A stretch of 35,756 nucleotides of DNA from Arenimonas caeni (GTDB lineage Bacteria; Pseudomonadota; Gammaproteobacteria; Xanthomonadales; Xanthomonadaceae): NCBI RefSeq assembly GCF_003024235.1, contig NZ_KZ679087.1, positions 192,007 to 227,762 on the forward strand, written 5' to 3'. This document shows positions 5,714 to 11,141 of the stretch, piece by piece (position 1 is the first letter of the stretch; the number at the start of each line of letters is the position of its first letter). The notes below the pieces were generated by a model. It saw only the letters and a list, made by a program, of their open reading frames with translations, made no database searches and was not told the origin of the DNA. Both the position numbers and the translations under genes were made by a program.

Positions 5714-5919
5714 CGCGTCTCCTGCAGCCAGGCATACCCCTGCACGCCCCAGCTCCCCTGTTGTGGGGCTGGCAGCGCGGGCTCGCGACGTGCACAGCCT
5801 GCGGCGGGATCGCGGGGCGGCAAGGGCAGGGGGCCGGTCGCGGGTCCTCCCTGGGGGGTGCCTTCGGGGGTAATTCGGACCCCGTTGGTTGTGTAGTTAG
5901 CGGCCCCGGGGGTTACTGA
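5710..5919 (+). CDS. Small Gly-rich hypothetical protein, 69 aa
   Basis: The ATG overlaps the previous stop as ATGA and the frame ends 3 nt before the primase GTG. The first ~35 residues (MTRLLQPGIPLHAPAPLLWG...) include a TCTACGG that could be half of a zinc site. The second half is Gly-rich and less protein-like, and 5860-5920 may really be an untranslated leader for the primase gene. The call rests mainly on spacing. Confidence 0.35.
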   Translation: MTRLLQPGIPLHAPAPLLWGWQRGLATCTACGGIAGRQGQGAGRGSSLGGAFGGNSDPVGCVVSGPGGY

Positions 5920-5922
5920 AAA

Positions 5923-8319
5923 GTGGCGAGCAACTACGACGACGTGCTCTCCCAGCTGCAGGCCGCCGGCCTGCAGGTCACCTCCCTCGAGGTCGGGCGC
6001 ATGCGCCGCTGCCGTGTCGAGGGCGACCGCGAGAAGCGCGGCTGGTACATCCTGCACGAGCTGCCGCTTTCGGGTGGCGACCTGGTGCTGGTGGGCAGCT
6101 ACGGCGTGTGGCGCGGCGCCGACAACGGCGCGCAGAAGATCGACCTGCGCAAGCGCGACGCCGCGTTCAGCGCCGAGCAGCGCGATTCCCTGAAGCGGCG
6201 GCTGGCCGCCGATCGCCGGCGCGCCGACCAGGAGCGCAAGCAGCTGGCCGAGCGGGCCGCCCAGCGCGCCACTGCCGCGTGGGCAAAGCTCAGTGAAGAG
6301 GGTGACTCCGAGTACCTGGCGGCGAAGGGTGTTCAGGGCTTCGGCCTGCGCTACTCGGGCAAGGGCGCCGCCGTCGTGCCGATGCTCGATGCCCAGGGCC
6401 AGATCCACGGGCTGCAGCTGCTGCGCTCGGCGAAGCAGGCCTCGGCCGACCAGCGACCGGCCAAGGAGTACTGGCCTGCCGGCGCGGTCAAGCAAGGCCA
6501 CTTCCACCAGATCGGCGCGCCGCAGTGGATCGTTCTGATCGCCGAGGGTTATGCCACGGCGGCCAGCGCGCACATGGCGACCGGGTACCCGGTGGCTGTA
6601 GCGTTCGATGCCGGCAACGTGCCGGCCGTGGCGGCCGCGCTGCGCAAGCGCTACCGCACCGCCCGCATCCTGATCCTGGCGGACGACGACGAGCTGCAGA
6701 AGTGCCAGGCCTGCAAGGCACGCCTGGTGCTGGCCGAGCACCCGGAGACCTGCCCGAGCTGCGGACAGGAACACCGCGCGGCGAACGCCGGCGTCGCCGC
6801 GGCCAGCGCGGCGGCGCTCGAGTTCGGCGGCGCCTGGCTGACACCTGCGTTCCCCGATGAAGAGGCGCGCCGGCGGCGCTTCCTCGAGCGCGGCATCAAG
6901 GCCACCGACTTCAACGACCTGCACGCCGCCGCCGGCCTCCACCTGGTGCGTACGCAGATCGAGAACCGCATCGCCGAGCTGGGGTGGAAGGCGCCCAACC
7001 GCGCGCCGACATCACCACCAGACGGGGCGGGGGGCGGCAAGCTGTCGCCGTTCCTCACCACCGGCGAGCTGATCGAGCGGTTCCCGCTGATCTACGCCCA
7101 CGGCTCCTCGGTGTTCGATCGCGTCGAGCACGTGATCATGACCGTGAGCGACATGCGCGACGCGTGCGTGAACAAGTACATCCACCGTGCCTGGCAAGAA
7201 TCGCCCGATCGGCAGATCGTCCGGATTCGCGAAGTCGGCTTCGACCCGACCGGACGCGACCCGGAGATCACCTGCAACCTCTACGCCGGCTGGCCGACCA
7301 CGCCGAAGGCCGGCAAGTGCGATCGCCTGCTCGACCTGCTGCGCTTCATGTGCAGCCTGGACCGCGACCCGAATCGCCTTTACGAGTGGGTGCTGCGCTG
7401 GATCGCCTACCCGATCCAGCACCCCGGCGCGAAGATGAAGTCGACCGTCGTGGTACACGGCCCGCAGGGCACCGGCAAGAACCTGCTCTTCGAGACGGTG
7501 ATGCAGATCTACGGCGAGTACGGAGACGTGCTCGACCAGTCGGCCGTCGAAGACAAGTTCAACGACTGGGCCAGCCGCAAGCTCTTCATGATCGCCGACG
7601 AGGTGGTGGCGCGCTCCGACGTGTACCACATCAAGAACAAGCTCAAGTCGCTGATCACCGGCGACCGAATCCGCATCAACCCGAAGAACCTGCCGGCCCA
7701 CTGGGAACGCAACCACGTGAACCTCGTGTTCCTCTCGAACGAGGCCATGCCCGTAGTGCTCGAGGAGGACGACCGCCGCCACTGCGTGATCTGGACCCCC
7801 GAGAAGAAGTCCGCGGACTACTACGCCGAGGTGCTGGCCGAGATCCGCAATGGGGGCGTCGCGGCACTGCATGACTACCTCCTGCACCTGGACCTCGGTG
7901 ACTTCGGCCCGGGTACGCTCCCGCCGGAGACCGAGGCCAAGTCGCAGCTGATCAACCTCGGCCTCGACAGCCCGATCCGCTTCCACGACGACCTGGTCAC
8001 CGGGAACATCCACGGGCTCGAGGCCATGCCCGCCACCACGACCGGCTGGTACGAGGCCTACCGGCTCTGGTGCAGCCGCCACGGGTACCGCCCGGCCCCG
8101 GAGTCCAAGTTCGTCGTGGGCCTGATCCGCCAGCGCAACGTGGTCGGCGGGCCCAGGGTGCGAAAGCGCTACCAGCCCGGGTCGAAGGTCCTGGGCCCTC
8201 ACAGCTTCCTGATGCTCGGCAGCTACCAGGTGCCCGAGGGCACCTCCGAGGCGCTGTTCCTGGGCGAGTGCCACTCGAAGTTCCAGCAGCAGCTGGAAGA
8301 CTACCGGGAGGCGAAGTGA
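5923..8319 (+). CDS. Phage primase-helicase (Toprim plus SF3-type helicase)
   Basis: The product has 798 aa with a GTG start 3 nt after the preceding stop. Residues about 200-300 form a Toprim domain with EGYATA (208-213) and ADDDE (253-257), the metal-binding acidic motifs of DnaG-type primases. A CxxC-x12-CxxC zinc ribbon (Cys261, 264, 277, 280) is inserted directly after ADDDE. The C-terminal half carries a Walker A (GPQGTGKN, 513-520) and Walker B (FMIADE, about 560), with an arginine- and histidine-rich stretch after it, as in SF3/D5-type helicases. The protein would prime and unwind phage DNA at the replication fork. A block of repeats lies immediately downstream. Confidence 0.92.
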   Translation: MASNYDDVLSQLQAAGLQVTSLEVGRMRRCRVEGDREKRGWYILHELPLSGGDLVLVGSYGVWRGADNGAQKIDLRKRDAAFSAEQRDSLKRRLAADRRRADQERKQLAERAAQRATAAWAKLSEEGDSEYLAAKGVQGFGLRYSGKGAAVVPMLDAQGQIHGLQLLRSAKQASADQRPAKEYWPAGAVKQGHFHQIGAPQWIVLIAEGYATAASAHMATGYPVAVAFDAGNVPAVAAALRKRYRTARILILADDDELQKCQACKARLVLAEHPETCPSCGQEHRAANAGVAAASAAALEFGGAWLTPAFPDEEARRRRFLERGIKATDFNDLHAAAGLHLVRTQIENRIAELGWKAPNRAPTSPPDGAGGGKLSPFLTTGELIERFPLIYAHGSSVFDRVEHVIMTVSDMRDACVNKYIHRAWQESPDRQIVRIREVGFDPTGRDPEITCNLYAGWPTTPKAGKCDRLLDLLRFMCSLDRDPNRLYEWVLRWIAYPIQHPGAKMKSTVVVHGPQGTGKNLLFETVMQIYGEYGDVLDQSAVEDKFNDWASRKLFMIADEVVARSDVYHIKNKLKSLITGDRIRINPKNLPAHWERNHVNLVFLSNEAMPVVLEEDDRRHCVIWTPEKKSADYYAEVLAEIRNGGVAALHDYLLHLDLGDFGPGTLPPETEAKSQLINLGLDSPIRFHDDLVTGNIHGLEAMPATTTGWYEAYRLWCSRHGYRPAPESKFVVGLIRQRNVVGGPRVRKRYQPGSKVLGPHSFLMLGSYQVPEGTSEALFLGECHSKFQQQLEDYREAK

Positions 8320-8329
8320 TGGCCTGGCC

Positions 8330-8584
8330 TGTGCGCGGTGTGCGTGGGTTGTGCGTGGCGACGTGCGGGGCTGAAAGCCGCGACAGGAAAGGCTTGTGCG
8401 TGGTGTGCGGGGTTCGGCCTAACGCGGGCGCACGCGCACGAATCGGCCCGGGCTACCACTGCGCGAAACGCACTCGCGCACACGTGCCCGCCCCCGCACA
8501 CCACGCACACCCCGCACAAGGCAGGCGGGGCGCGGCTTTCAGGCGTGCGGGCACCTGTGCGGGGTGGCCGGCACCCCGCACAGG
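8330..8584. repeat. Phased TGTGCG repeat block (cos or origin candidate)
   Basis: TGTGCG occurs at 8330, 8339, 8350, 8395, 8404 and 8556; its complement CGCACA occurs at 8477, 8495, 8504, 8513 and 8577. Many neighbours are exactly 9 bp apart, giving a TGTGCGKGG unit. An 18-bp perfect inverted repeat (TGTGCGTGGTGTGCGGGG) joins 8395-8412 and 8492-8509. The block lies between the primase-helicase and the terminase small-subunit gene, the position of cos in lambda, where repeated R sites bind the small subunit. An iteron-type replication origin is the main alternative. Confidence 0.7.
8554..8584. repeat. 31-bp palindrome with 13-bp perfect arms
   Basis: CCTGTGCGGGGTG at 8554-8566 pairs perfectly with 8572-8584 around a GCCGG centre. 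Each arm contains one copy of the TGTGCGGGG unit in opposite orientation. There is no T tract, so it is not a standard intrinsic terminator. It could be the rotationally symmetric part of a cos nick site, or an origin element. Confidence 0.7.
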
Positions 8585-8652
8585 CACGGTCGCGCGCGGG
8601 CGCGGGCCTTCTCCCATCGCTCTCGTGGAAGAAAGAAGGGGAGGCGGTAGGC

Positions 8653-9246
8653 ATGGCTGGCGCTGAAGGCGGCGAAGTTTCCCGCAAGGCCTTCGCCCGG
8701 ATCCTGGGGGCGGCTCCCAGCTACATCACCCAACTGCAGGAAGAGGGGCGGCTCGTGCTCTCGGCCGACGGAAAGAAGGTGCGGGTCGAGGAGTCCCTGG
8801 CGCTGATCCGCGGGACGGCCGACCCGAGCAAGGCGGGCGTCGCCGAGCGCCATGCCGCGGCCCGTGGCGCGCCCACGGGGGCGGCTGCGGCCGACGACCA
8901 GGATGGGGACGACGCGATGCCTTCTGACCCGGCGCAGGGCGGCGACGCCCGGCGTCGGGCCAAGGCGCTGGCCGACAAGGCCGAGACCGACGCCAAGGCC
9001 GCCGAGCTCGACTACCGCCAGCGGGTGGGGGAGCTGCTCGAGGCGGCCGAAGTCGAGCACCTGATCAAGAGCGCGGTGACCACGTTCCGCGGCGGCCTGG
9101 AGAGCCTGCCTGACACCCTGGCGCCCGAGCTCTCGGCGCTGTCGGATGAAGGCCGGATCCGCGTGGTGCTCGGCGAGGCGATCGAGCACCGGCTCGAGGA
9201 ACTGTCCCGGGCGTTCGGCGCCATCGCCAGGCGGGAACAGGCATGA
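8653..9246 (+). CDS. Terminase small subunit (Nu1-like)
   Basis: The product has 197 aa, with ATG 8653 behind a GGAGG site; an earlier frame would run through the repeat block. Residues 9-50 (EVSRKAFARILGAAPSYITQLQEEGRL) form a winged-HTH of the Nu1/DUF1441 type. A Pro/Ala-rich linker follows, then a long charged helix (about 105-140) for dimerisation. It overlaps the large-subunit gene by 4 nt (ATGA). It would bind the packaging site, most likely the repeats just upstream, and hand DNA to the large subunit. Confidence 0.8.
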   Translation: MAGAEGGEVSRKAFARILGAAPSYITQLQEEGRLVLSADGKKVRVEESLALIRGTADPSKAGVAERHAAARGAPTGAAAADDQDGDDAMPSDPAQGGDARRRAKALADKAETDAKAAELDYRQRVGELLEAAEVEHLIKSAVTTFRGGLESLPDTLAPELSALSDEGRIRVVLGEAIEHRLEELSRAFGAIARREQA

Positions 9247-11141
9247 GCGCGCAGAGTCGCCTCGCCGCCACCATCTCCCGGGCCATCGCGCCGCGGCGCC
9301 CGATGCGCGTGAGCGACTGGGCCGCGGCCAACCGCGTGCTGTCGTCGAAGGCAAGCAACGAACCAGGCCGCTGGCGCAACGAGCGTAACCCGCTGCTGGT
9401 GGAGCCGATGGACTGCTTCAGCGCCCGCAGCCCCGTGCGCGAAGTCGTGTGCCGCCTGCCGATCCAGTTCGGGAAGTCGGAGCTCGAGTGCAACGTGCTC
9501 GGCTACAGCATCGACGAGGTGGGAGGCCCGATCATGGTCTGCCTGCCCGGCGAGGTGTCGCAGGGCAAGTGGATCGACCAGAAGCTCAACCCCCTGCTGG
9601 AAGAAACGCCGGCCGTGCGCCGCCGCCTGGCGAGCACCGCCAGCCGCGACGCGGCGAATCGCCGAACCTTCAAGGACTTCGAGGGCGGGCAGCTGTACGT
9701 CGAGCACGCCGGCAGCCCGGAGCGCCTGAAGTCGACCTCGGTGCGCACGCTGATCGTCGACGAATTCTCCAGCTTCGCTACAGCACTGCGAAGTGGCGAC
9801 GACCCGGACCTGATGCTCGACGGCCGCACGAGCGCATTCCCCGCCACGTACAAGCGGCTCAAGGTCGGCACACCTGGCATCAAGGGCATCTGCCGCATCG
9901 ACGCCCTCTACGCCAAGAGCGACCAGCGCCGCTGGTACATGCCGTGCCCTGACTGCGGACACAAGCAACCCTTCGAGTGGAGCGGCCTGCACTGGACGCC
10001 CGACGCCAGCGCCTGCTGGTACGTCTGCCGCGAGTGCGGCGTGGTGATCGAGGAGCACCAGAAAGACGCCATGATCGACGCCGGCAGCTGGGTGGCCGAG
10101 AACCCTGGCGCCGAGATCCGCGGCTACGCGGCGAACGGCCTGTACTACAAGATCGGCCGCGGCCCGCGCTGGCTGCAGCTGGTGCGAGAGTGGGTCGACG
10201 CGCAGAACGACCCGGCGAAGCTGAAGACCTTCATCAACGACCGCTTGGCCGAGGCCTGGGAAGACCCGGCCATGCGCGCCGTGAAGCACAACGTGATCGC
10301 CGATCGCGTGGAGCCCATGCCGCTCAAGCCGGTACCCAACTGGGTGCTGGCCGTCACCGCCGGTATCGACACCCAGGACGATCGCCTGCCCGTGCAGCTG
10401 GTCGGCTGGGGCCGCGGCCTGGTGTGCTGGCCCATCGACTACGTCGAGCTGCCCGGCGACCCCGCCGAGGACGACGTGTGGCTGGCCCTGACGGAGCTGA
10501 TCTCGCGGCCGATCGAGCGCGCCGATGGCCGGCTGCTGCGCGTGGAGGCCAGCGCCCAGGACGCCGGCGGCCACCGCACCGAGGCGGTGAAGGCCTTCGC
10601 CCGCCGTCGCCTGCTACGCCGGCACATCGCCATCTTCGGCGCGAAGGCGAACAACGCGCCGGTGCTGAGCAAGGGCACGCTGGTGGATATCAACTGGCGC
10701 GGCCAGCTCGACAAGCGCGGCATCAAGATCCACCACGTCGGCACAGTGGGCATCAAGCACATGCTCTATGGCCGCCTGAGCGCCGATGCCGACAAGCCGG
10801 CCGAGCAGCGCCAGGTGCGTTTCAGCGAGGAACTGCCGCCCGAGTACTTCGGCGGCCTGGTGAGCGAAACCTACAACCCGGCCAAGAACCGTTTCGACAA
10901 GCGCCGCGGCGCGCCGCGCAACGAGCCGCTCGACACCTGGGTGTACGCCTACGCGGCCACGCACCACCCGGAGCTGCGCCTGCACCGGCTCACGAAGGCC
11001 GACTGGGATCTGCGCGAGCAGCGGCTGGCGGCGGCCGAGAACGATGTTCCACGGGAACCGTCGCCGCCGGCGGTCGCCGCTCAGGGTTCCCGTGGAACAA
11101 CGGCGGCCCCCGCCAAGAAAGGCTGGAGGCGGAATTGGTGA
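9243..11141 (+). CDS. Terminase large subunit (GpA family)
   Basis: The product has 632 aa, near lambda gpA in length. A Walker A-like LPIQFGKSE is at about residues 72-80 and Walker B TLIVDEF at about 169-175. A zinc-binding CPDCG...CRECG pair follows at about 235 and 263, and the nuclease domain starts near AGIDTQDDRL (about 380). GpA proteins cut cos and translocate DNA into the prohead. The last 35 residues form a Pro/Ala/Gly linker whose DNA contains a 15-bp inverted repeat. The stop overlaps the GTG of the next gene. Confidence 0.95.
   Translation: MSAQSRLAATISRAIAPRRPMRVSDWAAANRVLSSKASNEPGRWRNERNPLLVEPMDCFSARSPVREVVCRLPIQFGKSELECNVLGYSIDEVGGPIMVCLPGEVSQGKWIDQKLNPLLEETPAVRRRLASTASRDAANRRTFKDFEGGQLYVEHAGSPERLKSTSVRTLIVDEFSSFATALRSGDDPDLMLDGRTSAFPATYKRLKVGTPGIKGICRIDALYAKSDQRRWYMPCPDCGHKQPFEWSGLHWTPDASACWYVCRECGVVIEEHQKDAMIDAGSWVAENPGAEIRGYAANGLYYKIGRGPRWLQLVREWVDAQNDPAKLKTFINDRLAEAWEDPAMRAVKHNVIADRVEPMPLKPVPNWVLAVTAGIDTQDDRLPVQLVGWGRGLVCWPIDYVELPGDPAEDDVWLALTELISRPIERADGRLLRVEASAQDAGGHRTEAVKAFARRRLLRRHIAIFGAKANNAPVLSKGTLVDINWRGQLDKRGIKIHHVGTVGIKHMLYGRLSADADKPAEQRQVRFSEELPPEYFGGLVSETYNPAKNRFDKRRGAPRNEPLDTWVYAYAATHHPELRLHRLTKADWDLREQRLAAAENDVPREPSPPAVAAQGSRGTTAAPAKKGWRRNW
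11045..11099. repeat. 15-bp perfect inverted repeat with parS-half-like octamers
   Basis: TGTTCCACGGGAACC at 11045-11059 pairs perfectly with GGTTCCCGTGGAACA at 11085-11099 (25-nt loop). Each arm is itself a small palindrome (GTTCC-ACG-GGAAC). The octamer TGTTCCAC is the half-site of the parS consensus TGTTCCACGTGGAACA, but each arm is one base short of a full site. A third copy (GTGGAACA) lies at 11516-11523. The repeat is within the linker codons of the terminase gene. Confidence 0.7.

Follow-up and report, generated by a model that had tools for sequence, protein, structure and literature searches.

A two-armed repeat array beside a phage primase-helicase gene, a probable replication origin of the P4-crr/PICI kind

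A 35,756-nucleotide stretch of the genome of Arenimonas caeni, referred to here as the window, carries a dense array of short repeat units, the first of which begins 11 nt past the end of the stop codon of a primase-helicase gene. We consider it highly probable from sequence comparison that this array is a replication origin of the P4-crr/PICI kind and that the primase-helicase encoded next to it reads its units. Position and sequence both link the array to that gene: across relatives, units in two facing and regularly spaced sets are attached to the helicase gene, and the unit changes jointly with the C-terminal winged helix of the encoded protein. The original prediction had offered a packaging site at the position of lambda cos with repeats bound by the terminase small subunit (TerS), an origin closer to plasmid iterons, or both; it is the origin that is supported.

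Repeat units and gene context in the window

The window holds 27 copies of TGTGCG/CGCACA, compared with 34 expected by chance over its whole length, and 11 of the 27 fall within 8330-8582 (Table 1). The predicted concentration of 11 copies in a short block is borne out, since none of 2000 dinucleotide shuffles of 8320-8599 reaches this number (mean 0.95, maximum 5). No 280-nt window (step 20) that starts outside 8000-8650 contains more than two copies, and there is no second TGTGCG cluster elsewhere in the window. In the host genome the repeat element was found once, a second, minus-strand match falling inside the element. A spacing of exactly 9 bp, which had been ascribed to many of the copies, holds for four of the ten successive distances (8330-8339, 8395-8404, 8495-8504 and 8504-8513) and fails for the other six. 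The 18-bp perfect inverted repeat that had been noted (8395-8412/8492-8509) is real, though not rare alone: inverted repeats of at least 18 bp arise in 4 of 500 shuffles, so that by itself it is not extreme in such GC-rich DNA. It is contained in a longer, imperfect dyad (8371-8413/8500-8542; 43 nt, 79%). A weight matrix recovers six units in the left arm and five in the right, namely all those of Table 1 except GTGCGGG at about 8544-8545, a sixth right-arm unit seen in exact 7-mer scans only.

Table 1. Features of the window discussed in the text (coordinates in the window)
Feature	Position	Strand	Remarks
Conserved block upstream of the primase, better cos candidate	5842-5922	+	GGGTCCT at 5842-5848; S1 ends near 5881/5882 (aligned by eye)
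Primase-helicase gene, presumed origin-binding initiator	5923-8319	+	Toprim primase, D5/DUF5906 SF3 helicase, C-terminal winged helix
Winged-helix domain (residues 683-770), presumed iteron reader	7969-8232	+	AF2 model secondary structure
Codon of R747	8161-8163	+	Closest correlate of unit position 5 (C or A)
TGTGCG/CGCACA copies	8330, 8339, 8350, 8395, 8404 (+); 8477, 8495, 8504, 8513 (-); 8556 (+); 8577 (-)		Exact scan
Left arm	8330-8412	+	Units 8330, 8339, 8350, 8362 (degenerate), 8395, 8404, all +
Central stretch between arms	8413-8491		GC-rich, about 80 bp; contains a further CGCACA (8477)
Right arm	8492-8582	-	Units about 8492, 8501, 8510, 8574 (-); two flipped, about 8544 and 8556 (+)
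CGCGCGC tract, then lower-GC purine-rich stretch	8590-8645		Between array and TerS
Terminase small subunit (TerS, Nu1-like)	8653-9246	+	PHROG 57, 1.4e-28
Terminase large subunit (TerL, gpA)	9243-11141	+	PF20454 5.6e-77, PF05876 1.7e-76

The position of the block between the primase-helicase gene and the Nu1-like gene was confirmed. The primase-helicase (798 aa) matches the Pfam families DUF5906 (4.7e-22) and Toprim_3 (4.9e-7), and scores 27.9 bits against TIGR01613, the P4-family primase domain, for which the cut-off is 108.7. TerL is followed by genes for portal, capsid-protease, major tail, tape-measure and tail proteins, and repressor and CII-like activator genes are found upstream. Because it has its own virion genes, the element in the window is a phage and not a satellite.

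The tract between the array and TerS may, judging from its composition, serve as a melting zone, as a ribosome-binding and translation-start region, or as both. A CGCGCGC/purine stretch after the array is also seen in several relatives, ahead of whichever gene comes next, and over 65 loci the GC content at +21 to +60 past the last unit is 0.08-0.10 under the locus mean.

Arrays beside the helicase gene in relatives

Searches of viral contigs yielded 44 loci with TerL, 6 with TerS and 78 with the primase; in named genomes, the primase alignment covered the best 80 of 557 loci. In the 600 nt past the helicase stop codon, the most frequent exact 7-mer occurs at least 7 times in 70 of 78 regions, some of them near-identical, versus 2 of 921 other 600-nt windows from the same loci. 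These 78 regions comprise 76 of the 78 primase loci (L105 and L119, cut before the stop codon, were left out) together with the window, Lodos and S1, less one that was too short. Genome loci with a helicase match, drawn from the best 80 of 557, reach 7 units in 26 of 37 measured cases, two more being too short to measure. L061, L157 and L159 were left out as too short.

Loci with an N-terminal primase match and no helicase match had been meant as a negative control, and 1 of 39 reaches 7 units. This set is no clean negative, because the three proteins scanned (L172, L205 and L213) carry VapE-type helicases and because, among 12 such loci, mostly from Pseudomonas, 6 have a GTCCCA array about 370 nt past the stop codon. 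Of the remaining loci of these 12 without a helicase match, one has its array directly 3' and five have none. In the VapE-type Pseudomonas locus L205 the GTCCCA array (6089-6360) comes after a small gene and not directly after the helicase. Two loci without a primase match, from genomes of the window host's family and genus, also have arrays (L218, 6675-6872, AGGTTGG; L219, 3335-3561, GTCCAAC) beside helicase genes that we call VapE-like from reading their translations, with a separate primase-like gene.

Weight matrices fitted to each locus give at least 8 units in 103 of 115 loci, the 12 with fewer being L010, L064, L090, L095, L096, L149, L155, L162, L164, L168, L171 and L176. The same fitting on control windows gives a median of 4 units, and since 17 of 260 such windows reach at least 8, the 8-unit cut alone is not proof of an array. 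After exclusion of loci with fewer than 8 units, with more than 85% identity to a kept locus or with poor domain coverage, 65 non-redundant arrays remained, with a median of 11 fitted units.

In these 65 arrays, the distance from the helicase stop codon to the first unit is nearly constant, with a median of 14 nt (5-95%: 1-29; range -13 to 64). In contrast, TerS begins anywhere between about 0 and 2.4 kb past the last unit: for the 50 loci with a TerS match, and with TerS starts that were estimated, the median distance is 246 nt (5-95%: 7-1969; maximum 2406), and in 18 of the 50 the last unit is more than 400 nt from the estimated start. The array is thus placed with respect to the helicase and not to TerS, which speaks against the lambda-like cos position that had been proposed for it.

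When arms are split at gaps of 45 nt or more, 64 of the 65 arrays have two, separated by a median start-to-start gap of 88.5, which leaves a centre of about 80 bp. The arms face each other, with 328 of 351 left units on the plus strand and 297 of 332 right units on the minus strand. Six units per arm is the commonest number (28 left and 24 right arms, n = 64), followed by five (25 left and 20 right), although the count of six varies with the detection threshold; the best-filled arrays, for example L069, L089 and L111, have six plus six. The 9-bp spacing, which the original prediction had proposed to check in related phages, is conserved there: within arms a distance of 9 is seen 192 times versus 32 under random placement. 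Distances of 12 (96 versus 33), 64-65 (112 versus 16) and 73-74 (82 versus 9) are likewise enriched, with further peaks at 18, 21, 32-33, 44 and 53. Counted from the innermost unit, the peaks lie at 0, 9, 41, 53, 65 and 74 in the left arm and at 0, 9, 18, 61, 73 and 82 in the right. The outer slots therefore mirror each other between the arms, but the arms are not exact mirrors, the right tending to one extra inner unit (0, 9, 18 versus 0, 9) and lacking the 41 slot. Some outer right units are flipped to the direction of the left arm in the window clade, Lodos, LPPA56 and H4907.

The centres have a mean GC content of 0.583 versus 0.616 for the locus and lie below their locus in 41 of 64 arrays; an AT-rich melting zone was not found as a feature of these 64 centres, though AT-rich centres were seen by eye in H4907 and Mcat3. 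GC skew, put forward earlier as an origin marker, does not switch clearly where the array lies.

Natural spellings of the unit, assigned to loci by hand from the fitted matrices, number well over a dozen among the relatives and include TGTGCG, TGTGCA, TGTGAA, TGTGAG, TGTGCC, TGTTCC, TGTGTT, TCAGACA, TTGCCGG, CACTACG, GATACG and CGCACG. Loci with an array beside the primase-helicase gene come from Lysobacteraceae, Comamonadaceae and others. Among named tailed phages, arrays were found in Stenotrophomonas phage S1, in Pseudomonas phages Lodos, LPPA56, PG1 and KT1, in Halomonas phage H4907 and in Moraxella phage Mcat3. In Lodos the array (TGTGTTGGG) directly follows the primase, with TerS 2.7 kb past the stop codon of that gene and 2.4 kb from the array. 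The five further named phages that were chosen all have the array directly after the helicase, with top exact 7-mer counts of 11 in LPPA56 (unit TGTGTTG, as in Lodos), 9 in H4907 (TCAGACA), 8 in Mcat3 (GTGCAGG) and 6 in both KT1 (TGGTTA) and PG1; the last two are under the cut of 7, and the control maximum in these five phages is 4. No terminase gene is present in the 2.2 kb examined downstream in H4907, and in PG1 a TerS annotated as P27-family lies 2 kb on. In a close relative of the window phage, L010, a much degenerated array is found past the primase stop codon (about 930-1300), and its sequence may show an origin in the course of changing its unit.

The winged helix and the proposed origin

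An AF2 model of the primase-helicase (mean pLDDT 87, pTM 0.53) contains, in residues 683-770, two helices (706-720 and 727-738) followed by wing strands (741-750 and 757-764), which we read as a winged helix. The nearest solved folds are the NrS-1 helicase, SaPI5 PriRep1 and hexameric D5/E5-type viral helicases, with Foldseek values of 1.8e-17 for the NrS-1 CTR (6k9c) and 1.4e-9 for SaPI5 PriRep1. Among solved structures, that of the NrS-1 phage primase-helicase is the closest to the helicase half, and hmmsearch also matches it (2.8e-25).

The unit sequence tracks residues 700-768 of this protein. Partial Mantel correlations over the 65 loci gave 0.454 between unit and winged helix given the helicase core (0 of 499 permutations), and 0.093 between unit and core given the winged helix (63 of 499). 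With core, TerS and TerL all allowed for, the correlation of unit and winged helix is still 0.354 (0 of 299; 43 loci). On the best core tree of 40 TGTG-type loci, the two variable letters of the unit account for 13 changes. In a column scan of these 40 loci, R747 is the best of 396 columns for unit base 5 (z 6.8), and in the model it sits in a wing strand; the residue is R in 32 of 35 loci with C at that base and in 0 of 5 with A. This link, which was first noticed by eye before the scan, is only suggestive because A at base 5 is confined to five loci, which fall in two parts of the core tree. The region 690-775, with 83 of the 396 columns, accounts for eight of the ten best columns when base 6 is scanned and for six of ten with base 5. 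A first scan for base 5, with the Pseudomonas TGTGTT clade included, had returned helicase-core columns only among its top 10; we put this down to the distance of that clade and repeated the scan without it.

We propose that the winged helix of the primase-helicase binds each 9-bp unit (TGTGCGGGG in the window), with one unit per helicase subunit. Two sets of about six facing units around a centre of ~80 bp would then seat two helicase hexamers head to head. Such a double hexamer would melt the DNA and start two forks, the direction of which would also be part of this model, and the fused primase would then prime. A recognition code between winged helix and unit would be part of the same proposal.

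Origins of this plan have been described for satellites. In Gram-negative PICIs, two iteron sets lie around an AT-rich region 3' of pri-rep, and a plasmid maintenance assay served to test the function of an E. coli PICI pri-rep-ori (PMC6092414); the authors of this 2018 paper state that no other replicon with such a plan is known to them. In SaPI and SCC helicases it is the C-terminal domain that recognises iterons downstream (PMC7581432). The arrays described here share with PICI and SaPI origins the position directly 3' of the primase-helicase or Rep gene, the two sets of short iterons around a centre, and a helicase C-terminal domain that is expected to read them (PMC6092414, PMC7581432). 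They differ in lying in phages that encode their own heads and tails, and in the composition of the centre, which is AT-rich in PICIs but GC-rich in the window and only slightly below the locus mean over the 64 arrays.

In P4, crr is likewise directly 3' of the alpha primase-helicase gene, and its type-1 repeats are 9 bp apart (4314/4323 and 4494/4503), then 43 bp, according to the record annotation. However, crr consists of two 120-bp direct repeats, and a separate ori with the same repeats lies 4.5 kb away, whereas the window has a single block with facing arms. In the SCCmec Cch2 system, similarly, a D5-type helicase uses its C-terminal domain to bind repeats that closely follow its own gene, but there are only three AAGTG iterons and the primase is separate (PMC7581432). 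Classical plasmid iterons are tandem direct repeats of ~20 bp, whereas the units found here are short and form two facing arms next to a helicase gene.

Searches of open-access full texts showed no report of such an array in phages with virion genes. More tentatively, and with somewhat less than even confidence, we suggest that such origins are widespread in temperate phages of Gram-negatives, in which case the 'satellite-only' origin would be a replicon shared by phages and satellites, with an origin specificity that could be predicted from protein sequence. The phage arrays, with their recurring slot distances and many unit spellings, offer a natural set in which to study the placement of two rings on an origin by self-loading SF3 helicases and the joint change of initiator and origin. 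Their position also provides a simple rule for locating phage origins in sequence.

The cos site and other readings of the array

A better candidate for cos is the conserved block upstream of the primase gene (in the window GGGTCCTCCCTGG...GGGGTAATTCGGACCCCG...GTAGTTAGCGG...GGTTACTGA), 2.4 kb from the array, which starts with GGGTCCT, the sequence of cosQ in lambda. The linear record of S1 begins and ends, as deposited, inside a block matching 5842-5922, and the Stenotrophomonas loci L136 and L137 continue across the junction of the S1 ends. Of 54 loci, 27 have GGGTCCT in the 250 nt before the primase, at a median distance of 80 nt, versus 11 of 1752 control windows; of the other 27 loci, several have GGGTCCT variants and others have no such block. 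The bare motif occurs 6 times in the window. From these sequence features the upstream block is probably cos, and with the S1 record ends and GGGTCCT both placed before the primase, the elements probably follow one another as cos, primase-helicase, origin, TerS, TerL.

In lambda, cosQ is a highly conserved 7-bp site and TerS binds cosB, which has three TerS sites and an IHF site (PMC4669245). The array shares with cosQ-cosN-cosB the vicinity of a Nu1/gpA terminase pair, but has about 12 units tied to the helicase and does not adjoin the S1 record ends or GGGTCCT.

Two alternatives give TerS a role at the array. The first, that the origin is also used by TerS or cos functions, is in our judgement unlikely. 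It would agree with the location of the array between helicase and TerS in most gpA-type relatives, with a residual association of the unit with the TerS C terminus, and with the CGCGCGC/purine stretch past the array, for which we have no explanation. The second, to which we assign a very small probability, is that the array is cosB or all of cos, so that TerS would bind the repeats and the genome would end here; in the window, as in many relatives, TerS does come directly after the array. With core and winged helix allowed for, the unit correlates with whole TerS (0.249, 0 of 499; 50 loci), an association that stands against dismissing cosB. It resides in the C-terminal part of TerS (0.379, or 0.191 with TerL allowed for, 1 of 299; 43 loci), while residues 1-60, the DNA-binding N-terminal part, give in this indirect test 0.044 (102 of 299; 43 loci) and zero once TerL is included, and TerL itself gives a higher value (0.439; 43 loci). 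We infer that the associations with TerS and TerL reflect co-inheritance of neighbours. PG1 and H4907 have no gpA/Nu1-type terminase gene in the stretch examined, yet carry the array. Together with the distance of up to 2.4 kb to TerS and the S1 ends and GGGTCCT in a separate conserved block, these results led us to reject the predicted cos or cosB at the array. The same points apply to the dual use, the more so as the upstream block already has the parts expected of cos.

A role in transcription control is about as improbable as cosB: the array would be an operator, for self-repression of the primase or for a KilA-N protein, or an RNA structure or terminator ending the early operon. Folding of the plus strand does surpass that of shuffles (z -4.16), but the dyad by itself accounts for this, and we therefore discarded an RNA element; units in one arm moreover share their spelling though they do not pair with each other. 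The operator version can draw on two extra genes between array and TerS, L010 2101-2937 and L221 7248-8135, whose products have a C-terminal domain like the winged helix of the primase, that of L010 also carrying a KilA-N domain. Going by their sequences, these proteins are possibly regulators, or rivals that read the same units.

Least probable is that the array, here read as an origin, encodes a small cysteine-rich protein (ORF 8319-8666, annotated as gp2 in S1, L135 2454-2804), its CxxC motifs giving rise to the 9-bp repeats. The frame, which overlaps the primase stop codon, contains no stop codon over 270 nt in 43 of 65 arrays (other frames 10 and 16; shuffles 13%), and this openness is unexplained. 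However, no more than 218 of the 941 gaps are divisible by three, the product has no family match in Pfam, PHROGs or NCBIfam, and the cysteines are lost in translations of other unit spellings. We rejected the zinc-finger ORF on differences per codon position: with 9874 out-of-frame aligned positions set aside, 130 overlapping pairs show no third-position excess (0.164/0.173/0.156), whereas the primase does (0.158/0.127/0.358).
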